From: Spirochaetaceae bacterium
GTDB taxonomy: Bacteria; Spirochaetota; Spirochaetia; Treponematales; Rectinemataceae
DNA: 64,000 nucleotides
NCBI GenBank assembly: GCA_025356015.1
Contig: JANXYO010000103.1
Coordinates: forward strand, 1 to 64,000
Direction: 5' to 3'
The translations under genes and the position numbers were made by a program. Shown here one piece after another: positions 17,758 through 26,666 of this stretch (position 1 is its first letter; each line of letters begins with the position of its first letter). The notes under the pieces are model-generated. The model made no database searches, was not told where the DNA came from, and saw only the letters and a list, made by a program, of their open reading frames with translations.

Positions 17758-19950
17758 TTAGGCCAGATCGAAATCCCCCCTGATCTCGGCCATCCGTCTT
17801 CCATAGGCCTCGCGGAGGCCCCAGAGCAAGGCTGGCTTGTCCTCGACGAGGGGGGCGGGAATGAAGTACGCGATCGAGTTGCCTTCGGAGCTGGAGTCGA
17901 AAAGCCTCCTGCCCTCGCCCACGATCGCTTCCTCCCCACAGAAGTCCCCGACGCCAAGGCGCACCATCTGCTTCCCCATGTAGCGCATCGAGCCCTTGCC
18001 CTGTGCGATGATGGTGATGCCCGCGGGCTCATCGAAGGACAGCCTGTCCCCGTCCTCATGCTTCATGAGCTCAACGCCGTCAGCGAGTTCGTCGAGGACG
18101 TCGAGGGAGCCAATCTCGAGGAATAGGGGCAGCCTCCGGAAGAAGGAGACGATGTCGTGGCGGGCCTCGACCGCCCAATGGTCGGGTCGGCCTGACACCA
18201 GGCCCCGGTAGCTCATCGCAGGGATCATCGTGGTGATGACGGCGCCAAAGGCGGTGTAGCCCGCGGAAGCGGGGACGCGATGCACGCACTCGACCCCACC
18301 GAGGATGGAACCCGGAGAGGAGGTCCTCGTGCGCCGGCCCGCGCGGTCCACGGCCTCGACGACCCCATGGAGCAGGAGGTGGACTGAGTCGACAGAGGCG
18401 CCCTCCCTAATGAGGACGGCACCGTCCTCGAAGCGCGTCGGCTCGTCCCGGGACAATAGGGCAAGCTCCTCTCCCCAGTTGGAGGCAAAGGCCCGCCTGA
18501 GGAGGGATTCCGCCCGCCGGGCGAGGTAGTCGAGGCTTGCGACCTTGAGGATGGTAAGCTCCCCGAAGGCGGCAACCCTGCCCACCGAGGGGCTGACCGG
18601 GCCGCTCGTGTGGCTGACGAATAGCGTGCCCGAGGCGTCCTTGGCGAAATCCTCAACCTCGCCGTGGATCATGCCCCCGCCCGCGTCGATCTTCTTCGCC
18701 TCGAAGGGTTCGAGGTATTCCGACTTGAATCTTCTCGCCGCGGAGGGGCGCAGGCCCGGCACCGAGGCATCGGCTGTCGTCATCGAGTCGATGACCCTGA
18801 ACGAGGTGAGATCGGCGTAGTGGGCATAGGTCAGCGCCTGCCTTCCCTTGCCGGAGCGGAAGCGCATGATGGAATTCTCAACCGGATGGGGCGAGAGGAT
18901 TGGCATCACCTCCATGCCATCGACATCGTTCCAGCTCCCCTCTTTGAGGTCGTGCACCTCGAAGTATCGGGAGAAATCCGCCTCCCGCAGCCCGGTGAGG
19001 GCGCAGAGCTTCTTCGTGGCCGAGGCGCGTACGCAGGGAAGGGCGAAATAGCGCAGCCTCCTGTCGGCCCGGAACAGGGCGGTTATCCCGATGAAGTGGT
19101 CGTCATGGGCATGGGTCTGGAACACCCCTGATAGCCCGCCAACCCCGATCCCGATCGCATCGAGGCTCTCCTCTATGTCCGGTCCGGCGTCGACCAGCCA
19201 GGCCTCGCCCCGGTGGATGACCACGCTCCCCATGCAGGGCCGAAGCGGATCCCAGCCGTCGCCCTCTCCGATGTGGACCACGGCAAAGTCCTCGAGGCTC
19301 GCAAGGCGCCGCGGGAGGGAGTAGGGAGCTGGCGTGACGGAGAAGGCCGTGGTGTCAAGGCTGACGGCGATGGACTCCTGGCCCAGCACGAACTCATATT
19401 GGTTGACTCCGCTGCGGTGCAGGCTCAGGGCTCCGCGAAGCGGGAGACTGTCCCGGTCGATAACGCGCAAATCGAGGAGTTCCCCCGTCCTCTTGCGGCG
19501 GCCGAAGGCGAACTTGAGCTTCATCCTCTCGAGTTCGGCGGCCTTGAAGCTCCTCATGCCTGTGGCCAGGACCTCGTCGGGGTCGAGGCCGTAGTTGCCG
19601 ACATAGATGTACGCGGCCTGGGCTTCGATCTGCGCCTTGAGCCCGATCAGCATGGGCCTTGCCCCGGTGTTGTTCGGGTGGGCGGGGACGATCATGCCCT
19701 GTCTGTACAGCATCTGGAGGATCGGGAATTCCGCGAGGTTCCTGAAACGCCCGTTCTGGACGGGGACCTCGCCGAGGAGTATCGCGTTCGGCCCGGTCTC
19801 GTACCTGGAGCCGTCCCGCTCGGCCTGGCGGATCACGGCCGCCTTCACCAGGTACTTCACGATGTTCTCGGGACAGCCGCAGAGCACAGAGAGGCCGACC
19901 TCGGGGACGTCCACGACAGAAACGCCCTCGATGATCGTGGTCTTCGTCAT
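17758..19950 (-). CDS. Multidomain protein: N-terminal unknown region, metallo-beta-lactamase fold, two cyclic-nucleotide-binding-like domains
   Basis: 730 residues. Residues 1-235 match nothing I recognise. Residues about 240-480 form a metallo-beta-lactamase-type domain with THAHDDH (HxHxDH metal motif) and later HPVEN and FVSHTSGP segments. The C-terminal part has two cNMP-binding-type beta-rolls: one with DGAVLIREGASVDSVHLLLHGVVEA, one with GDRLSFDEPAGITIIAQGKGSM and GDFCGEEAIVGEG. A metal-dependent phosphodiesterase or hydrolase gated by cAMP/cGMP is a reasonable hypothesis. GGAGG lies 6 nt before the ATG; TATACT (19973-19978, minus strand) is a likely -10. A class III cyclase and a CRP-like gene elsewhere in the window could be partners. 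Confidence 0.75.
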   Translation of the reverse strand: MTKTTIIEGVSVVDVPEVGLSVLCGCPENIVKYLVKAAVIRQAERDGSRYETGPNAILLGEVPVQNGRFRNLAEFPILQMLYRQGMIVPAHPNNTGARPMLIGLKAQIEAQAAYIYVGNYGLDPDEVLATGMRSFKAAELERMKLKFAFGRRKRTGELLDLRVIDRDSLPLRGALSLHRSGVNQYEFVLGQESIAVSLDTTAFSVTPAPYSLPRRLASLEDFAVVHIGEGDGWDPLRPCMGSVVIHRGEAWLVDAGPDIEESLDAIGIGVGGLSGVFQTHAHDDHFIGITALFRADRRLRYFALPCVRASATKKLCALTGLREADFSRYFEVHDLKEGSWNDVDGMEVMPILSPHPVENSIMRFRSGKGRQALTYAHYADLTSFRVIDSMTTADASVPGLRPSAARRFKSEYLEPFEAKKIDAGGGMIHGEVEDFAKDASGTLFVSHTSGPVSPSVGRVAAFGELTILKVASLDYLARRAESLLRRAFASNWGEELALLSRDEPTRFEDGAVLIREGASVDSVHLLLHGVVEAVDRAGRRTRTSSPGSILGGVECVHRVPASAGYTAFGAVITTMIPAMSYRGLVSGRPDHWAVEARHDIVSFFRRLPLFLEIGSLDVLDELADGVELMKHEDGDRLSFDEPAGITIIAQGKGSMRYMGKQMVRLGVGDFCGEEAIVGEGRRLFDSSSEGNSIAYFIPAPLVEDKPALLWGLREAYGRRMAEIRGDFDLA

Positions 19951-20043
19951 CGTGATCCTCCATCGCTTGAGGAGTATAGATCATTTTGGCCCCAGGCGCC
20001 TCTCCAGTGGAATTTCCCCGGGATTGCCGGTATGCTGGTGTGC

Positions 20044-20241
20044 GGCCGCAAGTGCGGCCCCCAAGGAGGATCAAGGACAGGAATACGGGGGGAAATAGCG
20101 CATGACCCTTCCCGGGCAGCTGCCGGGAAGCCGCCGATTTCGTGAGAGGCAGAATGCAAGACGAAATCGCGGGCGGTTCGTGAAGGTCCATGGATCCGCA
20201 GTTCGTCCAGTTTCGCTCGACTAGGCGTCGGAGCGAAACTG
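20044..20241 (+). repeat. Series of perfect hairpins in the glmS leader, upstream of the ribozyme
   Basis: Between the MBL-cNMP gene and glmS (616 nt without a protein gene) four strong stems precede the ribozyme: GGCCGC/GCGGCC (20044-20059), CTTCCCGG/CCGGGAAG (20108-20130), CGATTTCGT/ACGAAATCG (20135-20169), and an 11-bp stem CAGTTTCGCTC/GAGCGAAACTG (20208-20241). The last one covers the most likely ribozyme cleavage site. The section 19979-20043 shows nothing else; no convincing -35/-10 for glmS was found. Confidence 0.6.
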
Positions 20242-20458
20242 CGATGCGAGCCGGGATTCCTGTGCCTCCCGGCTCGCAGGTGACGAGGCAGAGGGTTTCC
20301 CGCCGCAGGGCGGGAATACGCGCCCGGACACATGGGCGCGGAAAATCGAGAGTTCAGCGGAAGCCCTCCGGGCGCGCCACGCCCGACCATCCACCCCTTC
20401 CAACATAAGTCCCTCCACAAGGCCGCGCGGGTAACCGAGCGGACAAAAGGAGGGGCAT
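20232..20458 (+). ncRNA. glmS ribozyme (glucosamine-6-phosphate-activated self-cleaving riboswitch)
   Basis: Directly upstream of glmS the conserved core is present in order: P1 hairpin with 11 perfect pairs (20245-20255/20268-20278), GACGAGG (20282-20288), GGGTTT (20293-20298), ATCGAGA (20345-20351), GCGGAAGCCCTCCGGG (20357-20372), P3 hairpin CGGGCG/CGCCCG (20369-20385), then stem CCCTCC/GGAGGG (20411-20416/20449-20454) enclosing a GTAA-capped stem (20423-20442) flanked by ACAA and ACAAAA, exactly the 3' domain layout of the Bacillus ribozyme. Two extra hairpins (20297-20316 and 20320-20340) are inserted between GGGTTT and ATCGAGA. Cleavage is probably at A20232/G20233. Binding of GlcN6P would trigger cleavage and lower glmS expression. 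Confidence 0.85.
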
Positions 20459-20523
20459 GGCTCGCACGGAAAATGTCGCTGCTCGAACCATCCCGGAGCT
20501 TACGCTCCGGGACGGCGAGCCAT
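20457..20523 (+). promoter_or_regulatory. Branched stem between ribozyme and glmS start
   Basis: ATGGCTCGC (20457-20465) pairs perfectly with GCGAGCCAT (20515-20523), enclosing a 9-bp hairpin TCCCGGAGC-TTAC-GCTCCGGGA (20491-20512). It sits 43 nt before the glmS ATG. It has no U-tract, so a terminator role is doubtful; it may stabilise the cleaved or uncleaved mRNA. Confidence 0.5.
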
Positions 20524-20566
20524 CCTAAAGCGGCTCTTTCCGGACCGATATGGGAGGGTATAAACC

Positions 20567-22408
20567 ATGTGTGGAATTGTGGGCTATGTCGGCCCGCGCC
20601 AGGCGGCGCCGGTCATTCTCGAGGGGCTCAAACGGCTTGAGTACCGCGGATACGACTCCGCCGGGCTCGCTGCGATGAACGGCGGCGGCATCGATATCCG
20701 GCGGGACGTGGGGAAACTGCGCAACCTCGCCTCGCTCTGCGAGCGCGAGCCGATAGCAGGATGCACAGGCATAGGACATACACGATGGGCGACCCACGGA
20801 GCGCCGTCTGAGCGCAACGCCCACCCCCACCTGAGCGACGGGGGCCTCGTCGTCGTGGTCCAGAACGGGATCGTGGAGAACTTCGTCGCCCTCAAGGCCG
20901 AGCTTTCCGCCGAGGGAGCGAAGTTCAAGTCGGACACGGACACCGAGGTGATCGCGAACCTCATCGAGCGCTTCATGTCCGGAGGCCTCCCGCTCGAGCA
21001 GGCAATGCGGAAGACCCTGTCCCGCCTCAAGGGATCGAATGTCGTCGTGGCCATGTCTCCACGGGATCCGGGCAAGATCGCGGTGGCCAGGATCGGGAAC
21101 GCCGGCGGCGTGGCAGTGGGCCTGGGAGAGGGAGAGACCTTCATCGCCTCGGATGTGCCGGCCATCCTCGAGCATACGAGGCGGATGGCCTTCCTCGAAT
21201 CGGGATGGATGGCGATAGTGACAAGCGAGGGCGCGGCCTTCGGCACCCTGGACGGGGCAGTTGTCCAACCCGAGATCCATTCGATCGCATGGGACCTCGT
21301 GGCCGCCGAGAAGGGCGAGTATCGCCACTTCATGCAGAAGGAGATCCACGAGCAGGTCCGCTCCCTCACCGACACGATCGGCGGCCGGGTGGACTTCCAG
21401 ACCGGGCAGGTGTCCCTGGCCGACCTTCACCTCGACGAGGCCCTCGCGAAGCGGATAAAGAAGATTGTCATCGTCGCCTGCGGGACCGCAGCCCACGCGG
21501 GGATGGTCGGGAAGATGATGATCGAAAGCCTTGCGCGTCTCCCTGTCGAGGTCGACATCGCCTCCGAATTCCGCTACCGCGACCCCCTCGTCGACGAGAA
21601 CACCGTGGTGCTCGCCATCAGCCAGTCGGGCGAGACGGCAGACACCCTCGCAGCCATGGAAGAGGCGCGCAAGAAGGGCGCAATCCTCTGGAGCATCGTC
21701 AATGTCATAGGCTCCCAGCTAATGCGCTCGTCCATGGGATGGATCACCATGCAGTCAGGACCAGAGATCGGCGTCGCCTCGACCAAGGCATTCACCGCTC
21801 CCCTCATCGACCTCTACCTGCTTGCCATGAGGCTCGGAGAGCTTCGCGGGATACTCGACCCCGGGCGGCTTCGCGAACTCGCCCAGGACCTCGCGAGGAT
21901 TCCGGACCTGGTCGGACGCATACTCGAGCGGGAGGGCCTCATTGAGGTTCTCGCGCGCAAGATGCGCGACACCTCCCACTGCCTCTATCTGGGACGGGGG
22001 ATCAACATGCCCATCGCCTACGAAGGCGCGCTAAAGCTCAAGGAGATCTCCTACATCCATGCCGAGGGCTACCCCGCAGGAGAGATGAAGCACGGTCCGA
22101 TCGCCCTGGTCGAAAAGGACATGCCCGTCCTCGTCATCGCTACCAAGGACCAGTGGTATGACAAGATGCTGAGCCAGGTAGAGCAGGCCAAGGCCCGCGG
22201 GGGCTACGTGATCGCCGTCGCGACCGACGGCGACGGGCTAATAGCGGAGAAGGCCGACCACGTGCTTTACGTGCCCGAGTGTCCCTGGCTCCTCAGCCCG
22301 GTCCTGACCGTCCTCCCCCTCCAGCTCCTTGCCTACCACATTGCGGTGCTCCGTGGCTGCGATGTCGACCAGCCGAGGAACCTCGCGAAGAGCGTCACGG
22401 TGGAGTAA
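20567..22408 (+). CDS. glmS: Glutamine-fructose-6-phosphate aminotransferase (isomerising)
   Basis: 613 residues, normal for GlmS. The N-terminal class II glutamine amidotransferase domain starts MCGIVGYVG, with Cys2 the nucleophile after Met removal, followed by YRGYDSAG and HTRWATHG. Two SIS sugar-isomerase domains follow (VACGTAAHAG, SQSGETADT, and the C-terminal YIHAEGYPAGEMKHGP and LAKSVTVE). It makes glucosamine-6-phosphate, first step of the amino-sugar pathway to peptidoglycan. The RBS is GGGAGG 8 nt before the ATG. Feedback through the upstream ribozyme is expected. Confidence 0.97.
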   Translation: MCGIVGYVGPRQAAPVILEGLKRLEYRGYDSAGLAAMNGGGIDIRRDVGKLRNLASLCEREPIAGCTGIGHTRWATHGAPSERNAHPHLSDGGLVVVVQNGIVENFVALKAELSAEGAKFKSDTDTEVIANLIERFMSGGLPLEQAMRKTLSRLKGSNVVVAMSPRDPGKIAVARIGNAGGVAVGLGEGETFIASDVPAILEHTRRMAFLESGWMAIVTSEGAAFGTLDGAVVQPEIHSIAWDLVAAEKGEYRHFMQKEIHEQVRSLTDTIGGRVDFQTGQVSLADLHLDEALAKRIKKIVIVACGTAAHAGMVGKMMIESLARLPVEVDIASEFRYRDPLVDENTVVLAISQSGETADTLAAMEEARKKGAILWSIVNVIGSQLMRSSMGWITMQSGPEIGVASTKAFTAPLIDLYLLAMRLGELRGILDPGRLRELAQDLARIPDLVGRILEREGLIEVLARKMRDTSHCLYLGRGINMPIAYEGALKLKEISYIHAEGYPAGEMKHGPIALVEKDMPVLVIATKDQWYDKMLSQVEQAKARGGYVIAVATDGDGLIAEKADHVLYVPECPWLLSPVLTVLPLQLLAYHIAVLRGCDVDQPRNLAKSVTVE

Positions 22409-22419
22409 AGCCCTCGATC

Positions 22420-23298
22420 CTAGGCGGGGGGCCGGCGCCCCGAGGCCCCGCCCCTCGCCTTCCATCCCCCGCTCGATCCGATCGCGGCGCCTGAGATGAT
22501 GAGCCCCATCGCGAGACCGGCCGCGGTGGTGAAGGGCTTGCCGCCGAGGACCACCAGGTTCAGCGTGGACAAGAGGGGCGTAATGTAGGCGAGGGATCCG
22601 ATCACCCGTGGATCTCCGCGTTTGATCGAGGCGTCCCATGCATAGAAGGCCGCCCCCATCGGTCCAAGGCCAAGGAGCGCGAGAAAGAGCCAGTCGGCCG
22701 GGAACAGGTTGAGGGGGATCGGTGAAGCCAGGTTCCCAAGGCCGAAACAGGCCAGGGAAAGCATACCCGAGGCCAGGCAGAATCCCCCCACCGCTCCCGT
22801 GGGGAAGGGGGCCACCCGCTTTGTCAGCAGGGAATAGCTGGCCCAGACGAAGGCCGCGGCTGCGGCCAGAAGATAGCCGCCCAGATGCGAGAGATCGGGA
22901 GAGAGCCTGCCGCCAGAGACGATGATGAAGGCCCCCGAGAGACCCAGGAGGGCCCCGGCGATGTGCCTGGCTCCCAGCCTCATGCCGGGGAGGAAAATAG
23001 GGCTCAGAACAACGATGAGAAGTGGCCACAGGTAGTTGAGGAGGTTGGCCTCGACCGCTGGCGCCGCGCGGAAGGCCGTGAAGAGGAGGAAGTGGTATCC
23101 GAAGATGCCGCCCACCCCGATCGCGAAGGTCAGAAGGGGTAGTTTCCAGTCGCGGGCCCGGAAGGCCCCCGCGAGGCCCCCGACGCAAAGCGCCACCCCC
23201 ACGGAGAACAGGGGCGGCAGGTGGGCCACCTTGGTGCCGAGGAGGGCGAGGCTGCTCCAGATCCCTATTGCGCACAACGCGAGCCCTATCGATGCCAT
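22420..23298 (-). CDS. EamA/DMT-superfamily permease
   Basis: 292 residues with about ten hydrophobic segments arranged as two EamA repeats (first repeat ending near 145; second begins LGGYLLAAAAAFVWASYSLL). Such proteins export metabolites or amino acids across the inner membrane; substrate unknown. Start at 23298 follows GGGGGAG by 6 nt and begins immediately with the first TM helix; the frame extends 25 codons further but that region has no coding character. Convergent with glmS, 11 nt apart. Confidence 0.85.
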   Translation of the reverse strand: MASIGLALCAIGIWSSLALLGTKVAHLPPLFSVGVALCVGGLAGAFRARDWKLPLLTFAIGVGGIFGYHFLLFTAFRAAPAVEANLLNYLWPLLIVVLSPIFLPGMRLGARHIAGALLGLSGAFIIVSGGRLSPDLSHLGGYLLAAAAAFVWASYSLLTKRVAPFPTGAVGGFCLASGMLSLACFGLGNLASPIPLNLFPADWLFLALLGLGPMGAAFYAWDASIKRGDPRVIGSLAYITPLLSTLNLVVLGGKPFTTAAGLAMGLIISGAAIGSSGGWKARGGASGRRPPA

Positions 23299-24742: not shown

Positions 24743-25858
24743 ATGGTGAAGACCGACATCGCCCGTGCGAAGGCCCATCTCAAGGAAGAACGAGAGGCTG
24801 CATACCTCTATGGCAGGCTCGCCGCGGCCGAGCCCAACGAAAACATAGCCTCGATCTATTCCCGCCTCGCCGAGACCGAGACCCGCCACGCCGCCTTCTG
24901 GGAAGCCAAGCTTGTCGAGGCCGGGGCGGCGGTCGGCATCTTCAGGCCGGGCTTCAGGACCAGGCTCTCGGCCGGCATCGGCGACCGCTTTGGACCCTCG
25001 TCCGTCATCAGTGCCCTGGCCGCGACCGAACGGAATGCCGCGGGAAGCTACGATTCCGAGCCGGGCGCCGAGTCCTTGGTCGGCGATGAGAAGTCCCACG
25101 CCAGGGTCTTCAGCCTCATGGCAGGCGCAGCCAGCGGCATGGCTGGCGGTGATGTGGCCAGATTCGAGGGGCGACATCGCTCTGGTGGGAATGCCCTCAG
25201 GGCCGGAACCCTGGGAGCCAATGACGGCCTGCTCTCGGTCTACAGCCTGGTAATGGGAGTAGCGGGCGCCGGGGTGGGGAAACGCGAGATCCTCCTCACA
25301 GGGATCGCGGGCCTCCTTGCCGGCGCCCTGTCGATGGCCCTGGGAGAGTGGATCTCGGTGCAGAGCTCGCGCGAGCTCTACGAGCACCAGGTCGAGGTCG
25401 AGAGGGAGGAGCTCGCCGACAATCCCGAGGAAGAGGCCGAGGAACTCGCCCTCATCTACATGGCCAAGGGTGTGGACGCCGAGCAGGCCCAGAAGATTGC
25501 ACGCGGCATCATCGGCAAGGGCGGAGAGGCTGCGCTCGATACCCTCGTCCGGGAGGAACTCGCGATCGACCGTTCTGAGCTCGGGGGCTCGGCCTGGGAA
25601 GCCGCCTTCACTTCTTTCGGCCTCTTCGCCCTTGGGGCCGCCATCCCGGTTGTGCCCTACCTCTTTCTTTCGGGGATGGCCGGCATCGCAACAAGCTCCC
25701 TCGCGAGCGCCCTTGGCCTCTTCGGGATCGGGGCCATCACGACCCTCATGACGGGCAAGAAGCCAGTGGTCCAGGGCCTGAGGCAGGTGGCGATCGGCAT
25801 CGCCGCGGCTGCCTGCACCTATGGGGTCGGACGACTCATAGGGGTCGCGATCAGCTAG
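24743..25858 (+). CDS. Ferritin-like domain fused to VIT1/CCC1 transporter (MbfA-type iron exporter)
   Basis: 371 residues. The first about 140 form a ferritin/rubrerythrin-like four-helix region with EEREAAYLYGRL, ETETRHAAFW and DEKSHARVF supplying Glu/His metal ligands. The C-terminal part is a VIT1/CCC1 membrane domain starting RAGTLGANDGLLSVYSLVMGVAGAG, with about five TM helices and an acidic cytoplasmic loop (EVEREELADNPEEEAEEL). Family precedent is MbfA, which exports iron and protects against iron/peroxide stress. RBS AAGGAG lies 10 nt before the ATG. The stop shares CTAG with truA. Confidence 0.88.
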   Translation: MVKTDIARAKAHLKEEREAAYLYGRLAAAEPNENIASIYSRLAETETRHAAFWEAKLVEAGAAVGIFRPGFRTRLSAGIGDRFGPSSVISALAATERNAAGSYDSEPGAESLVGDEKSHARVFSLMAGAASGMAGGDVARFEGRHRSGGNALRAGTLGANDGLLSVYSLVMGVAGAGVGKREILLTGIAGLLAGALSMALGEWISVQSSRELYEHQVEVEREELADNPEEEAEELALIYMAKGVDAEQAQKIARGIIGKGGEAALDTLVREELAIDRSELGGSAWEAAFTSFGLFALGAAIPVVPYLFLSGMAGIATSSLASALGLFGIGAITTLMTGKKPVVQGLRQVAIGIAAAACTYGVGRLIGVAIS

Positions 25859-26592
25859 TAGCGGACCTCCATGAGGCAGAGCCCGAAGGCGCCCAGCATG
25901 CCCGGCGCCTGGCTCCTGACCCTGGCAGCGAGAAGCCGGCTCACTTCTTCTGGCCCGAGCTTGCCCTGGCCCGCCTCGAGAAGGACAGCAGCCATGATCC
26001 TCACCTGGTTGGTAAGGAAGCCCGGGGCGAGGAAATACATGTCGACGAAATCCCCTGAGCTCTCGATCCTGACTTCGGTGAGAGACCTCGAGGTCTCGCC
26101 GCCGCCTGAGTTCGAAAAAGCCCGGAAGTCGTGCTCTCCGACCATGACGGCGGCTGTCCGCCTCATCGCCTCGAGATCGAGCTTGCCGCGAACGTGGAAA
26201 CTGCGGCCGCGCACCGATGGATCGGGCTCCCAGGCGACATGGAGCCTGTAACGATAGACCTTGGCCTTCGCGCGAAAGCGCGCATGGAAACGCGGGTCTA
26301 CTTCGCGGCAGGAACGGCAGGCGATATCGGCTGGCAACTCCTTCGCAAGAAGCTCGCACAGGGCTCCGGGAGACAGGGGAGTCCTCGAGTGGAAACTAGC
26401 GGCCTGTCCTTCCGCATGGACACCCGCATCTGTCCTTCCCGCGCCCGTGATCTCCACGCTTTCGCCGAGGATTCTGGCAAGGGCTGCCTCGACCTCGCCC
26501 TGGACGCTCCTTCCCTTTCCCGGAAGCCTTTGCCAGCCAAGAAAATCCGCGCCCTCATACGCGAGAGTAAGGAGAAAATTGCGTCTGGGCAT
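25855..26592 (-). CDS. truA: tRNA pseudouridine(38-40) synthase
   Basis: 245 residues, normal length. The catalytic motif is GRTDAGVHAEGQ, its Asp being the universally conserved nucleophile; LTLAYEGADFLGWQ at the N terminus and KVYRYRL are also diagnostic. It converts U38-40 in the anticodon arm of tRNAs to pseudouridine. Start chosen at ATG 26592 (MPRRNFLLTLAYEG) by comparison with family starts; no clear RBS, and a TTG at 26628 is the only longer alternative. Confidence 0.93.
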   Translation of the reverse strand: MPRRNFLLTLAYEGADFLGWQRLPGKGRSVQGEVEAALARILGESVEITGAGRTDAGVHAEGQAASFHSRTPLSPGALCELLAKELPADIACRSCREVDPRFHARFRAKAKVYRYRLHVAWEPDPSVRGRSFHVRGKLDLEAMRRTAAVMVGEHDFRAFSNSGGGETSRSLTEVRIESSGDFVDMYFLAPGFLTNQVRIMAAVLLEAGQGKLGPEEVSRLLAARVRSQAPGMLGAFGLCLMEVRY

Positions 26593-26666
26593 GGCTGCAT
26601 CATGGCCGCCCATGCCGAAGCGTGTCAACGCGACCGATCCGGTTTCCGCTTTCCCTCCCGCGGGGA

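Follow-up and report, generated by a model that had tools for sequence, protein, structure and literature searches.

The leader of glmS in the window, the 64,000-nucleotide stretch of a spirochaete draft genome analysed here, is by computation a homologue of the glmS ribozymes of Chloroflexota: it has their architecture, was transferred along with its gene into a locus whose flanks are native to the host, and carries a changed cleavage strand. The account that we favor, and hold to be probable, is that of a Chloroflexota-type ribozyme from an Anaerolineae-like donor, whose core has been kept while its self-cleavage has most likely been strongly reduced or lost. For this leader, then, we infer impaired cleavage together with a residual mode of control. 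This altered element is known from one genome only, itself a draft.

The RNA occupies positions 20241-20461, ahead of a TIGR01135 protein that starts 106 nt downstream (Table 1). An earlier note, made from the letters of the window, had recognized glmS ribozyme motifs directly before glmS, and these are indeed present in the order P1, GACGAGG, GAGGGUUU, two hairpins, AAAAUCGAGA, CAGCGGAAGCCCUCC, P3 and P4/P4.1, with the 3' GNRA-capped stem (GUAA tetraloop) bearing the ACAA flanks that it described (ACAA..GGACAAA). As a set they lie far beyond chance: R1, a covariance model of 19 aligned Chloroflexota glmS leaders from whose training the window was excluded, matches 20254-20461 with 113.7 bits (E 1.7e-32). 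The Rfam model RF00234, from which the same note had expected a hit, yields no match to the leader at its gathering threshold (17.2 bits vs 37) and, at a relaxed E-value, a local match restricted to the P4/P4.1 part (20406-20455, 17.2 bits). Elsewhere in the genome (L001, L003, L004) and in its relatives (L005-L011), RF00234 gives further matches below threshold, which resemble chance matches.

Both the double-pseudoknot core strands (GACGAGG, P2, P2.1, GCGG) and the P3/P3.1 and P4/P4.1 periphery of the glmS ribozymes are present, as is their location in the 5' leader of glmS. The Chloroflexota type, as defined by R1, combines two hairpins between P2 and P2.1 with a match to the model; the window RNA has both and is thus a member of this Chloroflexota-specific ribozyme form. 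The fold of 20200-20470 has an energy of -141 kcal/mol (z -5.3), and that of the two hairpins jointly (20297-20340) has -31.6 kcal/mol (z -5.9). From GACGAGG onward, the window retains all 29 columns that are invariant in the donors (29/29) and agrees with the consensus at 40/74 of the variable ones, a contrast which indicates that the core has been under selection. Neither a sigma-70 promoter nor an intrinsic terminator was found in 19940-20600.

Table 1. Elements of the glmS leader and gene in window coordinates.
Feature	Position	Strand	Remarks
Upstream hairpin	20204..20246	+	Near-perfect inverted repeat CAGUUUCGCUC/GAGCGAAACUG plus flanking pairs; occupies the expected cleavage-strand region
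Cleavage-strand counterpart of A|GCGCANGG	20238..20247	+	Reads A-CUGCGAUG-C
P1 hairpin	20245..20278	+	12 pairs, 20245-20256 with 20267-20278; -24.6 kcal/mol
Core strand GACGAGG	20282..20288	+	Conserved
P2 5' strand GAGGGU	20291..20296	+	Partner 20363-20368; P2 covaries in relatives
Insertion hairpin A	20297..20316	+	8 pairs, GCAG loop; 7/7 modelled pairs covary in Chloroflexota
Insertion hairpin B	20319..20340	+	7-8 pairs; apical part varies in relatives; 4/4 modelled pairs covary
Core strand AAAAUCGAGA, P2.1 region	20342..20351	+	Invariant core columns retained
P2.2 3' strand CAGCGG	20355..20360	+	Unchanged
P3 hairpin	20369..20385	+	P3 covaries in relatives
P3.1 pseudoknot (possible)	20376-20379 with 20458-20461	+	Loop GCCA with UGGC; from sequence
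J3/4 tract CCCUUCCA	20395..20402	+	Complementary to the glmS Shine-Dalgarno UGGGAGGG
P4/P4.1	20410..20455	+	GUAA tetraloop 20431-20434, ACAA/ACAAAA internal loop; RF00234 local match
glmS Shine-Dalgarno UGGGAGGG	20551..20558	+	8 nt before ATG; from sequence
glmS, 613 aa, Chloroflexota-type	20567..22408	+	TIGR01135 759 bits; tree

The earlier note was right that the RNA belongs to the glmS ribozyme lineage and that its core holds two additional hairpins; its view of them as a peculiarity of this genome does not hold. The two-hairpin insertion between GGUU(C/U) and AAUCGA is found in nearly all Chloroflexota leaders that we read, including those missed by RF00234, and R1 matches 90/301 Chloroflexota genomes. 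The extra hairpins are therefore the standard form of the Chloroflexota glmS ribozyme, which came with the transferred gene, and no spirochaete innovation. Of the first 20 Chloroflexota leaders, 8 reach the RF00234 threshold, and several bona fide leaders fail or barely pass. The architecture is borne out by covariation across the 19 aligned leaders, in which the whole-structure score is 0.738 vs 0.225 when shuffled (0/500) and collapses when partners are shifted by one column, with two-sided changes at every pair of hairpin A (7/7) and every modelled pair of hairpin B (4/4). A few Chloroflexota glmS leaders (L017, L024, L028, L067, L191, L195) have no recognizable P4/P4.1 domain after P3.

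The history of the gene points the same way as the architecture of its leader. In a protein search of the genome collection, the closest glmS sequences are from Chloroflexota, mostly Anaerolineae (60-70% identity), with the window glmS 70% identical to Anaerolineae glmS, whereas those of other members of the host family and order are only 43-48% identical; among the matches listed for 395 genomes sampled from the host class, none exceeds 49%. A maximum-likelihood tree places the window glmS within Chloroflexota (SH-aLRT 100 for a group of 23 comprising 22 Chloroflexota and the window), and the 29 spirochaete sequences fall elsewhere. The disparity in identity (70% vs at most 49%) and the tree position together establish that glmS and its leader were acquired horizontally. 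It is the single glmS of a genome that is 99.4% complete. The host itself is a spirochaete, as the earlier note had supposed: the FlaA family is characteristic of spirochaetes, and the genome has three matches to it as against 0/14 controls. The genes flanking the locus are native to this host. TruA, 3.4 kb downstream of glmS, is 59-64% identical to proteins of same-family genomes, the metallo-beta-lactamase/cNMP protein just upstream is 57-58% identical to them over the matched part, and two related genomes (G002 and G014) keep the same neighbors, with cydA-cydB in the place that glmS and an EamA gene occupy in the window. The loci compared are 19951-23221 of the window, L141 4951-7694 and L143 1756-4280. 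The genome has two truA-like genes (window 25858-26628; G000:C102:24817-25488), as do several relatives.

Where the window RNA departs from its relatives is in the substrate strand. Donor-type leaders are ordered as flank, A|GCGC[A/C]NGG, P1 and GACGAGG, and NGCGC is retained in every readable Chloroflexota glmS-linked leader, even those with very long P1 insertions; this was judged independently of a 54/54 pattern count, which was set aside as circular because the pattern required GCGC. The window instead has AAACUGCGAUG-C before P1 in place of the P2.2-forming A|GCGC, GCGC is absent from the 170 bases preceding GACGAGG, and the alignment to R1 leaves the GCGCA positions of the model unmatched. 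The most economical alignment has A-1 replaced by U (20240), G1, C2 and G3 retained (20241-20243) and C4 deleted; an alternative register, A|CUGC, allows four bases to pair, with G1 and C2 altered. Cleavage near 20232 (A|GCGAAAC), as the earlier note had proposed, is unlikely because the cleavage strand of the relatives lies directly 5' of P1 (A|GCGCANGG-P1); its counterpart in the window is 20238-20247, which lacks a match to A|GCGCANGG. Since the A|GCGC strand of all relatives examined is altered here, the reading of the RNA as an ordinary self-cleaver also loses its support, and the RNA may have given up self-cleavage.

The same region is drawn into the hairpin upstream of the core (MFE -24.5 kcal/mol, z -5.9; 0/200 shuffles as good), which pairs the cleavage-strand region away and was not seen in the Chloroflexota leaders. 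As a candidate repeat element it was rejected: it is present in a single copy in the genome, and no relatives of it were found. A template-switch event may have made the inverted repeat, which would explain why the flank and the cleavage motif were lost together. In mutational maps of other glmS ribozymes, changes in P2.2 adjoining the cleavage site are strongly detrimental, with changes to the C2-G56 pair being detrimental by >850-fold and deletions being worse than substitutions (PMC7125110); the sensitivity of the P2/P2.1/P2.2 core was confirmed in B. subtilis, and A-1 and G1 are tied into the active-site network (PMC11602151). Extended to the window RNA, these data predict strongly impaired cleavage. 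G1, C2 and G3 are nevertheless kept in homologous register, which counts against the account that we favor, in that slow cleavage may remain; likewise, the perfect retention of the active-site residues argues against a long-dead ribozyme.

A further helix of the donors also has no counterpart in the window. Chloroflexota leaders have an upstream flank, around -10 to -3 and typically GGGAAAG, that complements a CUUUCCC tract located between P3 and P4; we call the resulting helix P0. Its paired strands change together (GGAGGGU/ACCCUCC, GGGCAA/UUGCCC, GGAAAGG/CCUUUCC, GGAGGAAA/UUUCCUCC, GGAGA/UCUCC and others), and over 35 distinct strands the mean duplex is -11.2 kcal/mol vs -8.8 (sd 0.34) when permuted, with 0/500 as low. 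P0 covaries in glmS and glnA leaders of the Chloroflexota type (L012-L049, L146-L175, flank and J3/4). It was not found in the window, where the duplex is -7.3 kcal/mol with a longest run of 3 pairs. The J3/4 tract of the window can form a CCCUUCCA/UGGGAGGG duplex with the glmS Shine-Dalgarno at -15.6 kcal/mol; the corresponding pairing in donors (-12.1 vs -11.1 kcal/mol permuted, 13/1000) is weakly supported. Purely as a hypothesis, cleavage in the donors might free the flank and so release the J3/4 tract to cover the Shine-Dalgarno.

These observations suggest the following scenario. An RNA with a double-pseudoknot core, two hairpins between P2 and P2.1, P3/P3.1 and P4/P4.1 entered the spirochaete with glmS. 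Cleavage at A|GCGC in its donors is presumably triggered by GlcN6P and brings GlmS down. In the window, the ligand-binding and active-site core is fully conserved, yet the substrate strand is short of one P2.2 nucleotide, no longer has the conserved A-1 and is held in the new upstream hairpin, with the P0 helix of the donors gone as well. Most likely the RNA has, perhaps recently, lost self-cleavage or retains it only in strongly reduced form, and whatever regulation remains would operate via folding of the leader, in which the J3/4 tract can pair with the Shine-Dalgarno.

This scenario has to be weighed against others. We doubt, while granting it some plausibility, that the leader is a fully working self-cleaver that represses glmS as in Firmicutes and whose P2.2 is slightly altered, being either U|GCG-AUG, which includes an A.G mismatch, or A|CUGC paired with GCGG. 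Such a reading would accommodate the perfectly conserved core, and a 4-pair alternative P2.2 is possible (duplex -5.3 vs -5.0 kcal/mol for donors), with the glnA-type leaders described below showing that a rearranged P2.2 is tolerated in nature; however, each register alters a critical residue, either by loss of C4 along with A-1 or by changing G1 and C2 (PMC7125110; PMC11602151), the strand is trapped in the -24.5 kcal/mol hairpin, and RNase J was not found in the genome. Rather less likely, in our view, is that the RNA has become an ordinary GlcN6P riboswitch that does not cleave, its host having no RNase J; here the aptamer core would bind the ligand, the J3/4 tract would control the Shine-Dalgarno and the 5' hairpin would hold the former substrate strand.

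Two further readings are less likely still. The stretch is GC-rich and palindromic, and a mistake in sequencing or assembly, with A|GCGC present in the real RNA, might be entertained given that the strand differs from the consensus by one deletion and one substitution and that the sequence comes from one genome of the species, a draft of 150 contigs; we think it improbable, as the GGGAAAG flank of P0 has also given way to an unrelated inverted repeat, which a simple read error would not bring about. Least credible of all is contamination of the bin by a Chloroflexota contig or glmS segment: the gene and leader are clearly of Chloroflexota type and the contamination estimate is 3.6%, but the neighbors on either side have their closest matches in same-family spirochaetes, where their order is kept, and the bin has no other glmS. 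Synteny largely refutes this reading.

The proposed weakening of cleavage can be set beside a second spirochaete ribozyme. R1 has one other match among 393 spirochaetes, in genome G387 (L127 1497-1644), where a canonical glmS ribozyme (RF00234 99.7 bits) lies directly before glmS. It shares with the window element its phylum, class and genomic site but is Firmicutes-like, with an intact A|GCGCC and without the insertion; it is an independent case, so the phylum has two independent glmS ribozymes. In B. subtilis, RNase J is the nuclease known to clear glmS mRNA after cleavage. It was not found in the window genome (best 21.5 bits vs 400) and is present in 11/12 Chloroflexota genomes tested. Its absence as the cause of the strand change is only suggestive: G387, which has no RNase J match, retains an intact ribozyme, making the absence context rather than cause.

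Certain Chloroflexota genomes also harbor a second glmS-ribozyme-like RNA each (L176-L182, L185-L190, L193, L194), with a similar core and two hairpins, a cleavage strand A|GCGGCUG and an apparently shifted P2.2 bulge. It stands directly before a type I glutamine synthetase (TIGR00653) in L189, L190, L193 and L194; in others, an Ada-like gene and an EamA gene lie between it and glnA. The RF00234 threshold is reached in 3/15 of these leaders, which we regard as candidate glmS-ribozyme variants controlling glnA. A 6S RNA lies near the glnA-type leaders in L176, L178, L181, L186 and L188, ending within ~250 bases upstream of the ribozyme in L178, L181 and L188.

More generally, these findings indicate that a gene passing from one phylum to another can take its catalytic riboswitch with it, and that an architecture widespread in Chloroflexota largely escapes the Rfam model, which picks up only the smaller part of its signal. 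The window leader offers a natural case for the fate of such a riboswitch when the host lacks RNase J, and the contrast between its intact core (29/29) and its altered cleavage strand raises the question of whether a retained core could serve as a GlcN6P sensor without cleavage.

Among known systems, variants of the glmS ribozyme whose core has additional stems were reportedly described by McCown and colleagues in 2011 from Deinococcus-Thermus; like the window RNA, these would have their extra stems within the catalytic core and belong outside Firmicutes. A plasmid search for a Deinococcus glmS to compare found none among the 60 entries listed. With the RF00234 ribozyme, the window RNA has in common GACGAGG, P2, P2.1, the P2.2 3' strand, P3, the P4/P4.1 GNRA loop and the site before glmS; it differs in adding two hairpins between GGGUUU and AUCGAGA, in lacking the cleavage strand A|GCGCC and in scoring below threshold. 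Further counterparts are the glmS leaders of Chloroflexota (Anaerolineae; L012-L049, L146-L175). These have A|GCGC[A/C] and P0 (GGGAAAG with CUUUCCC in J3/4), both missing from the window, but share with it the two-hairpin insertion, the short linker, the GGAAAAUCGA joint and the core, and they precede glmS genes orthologous to that of the window.
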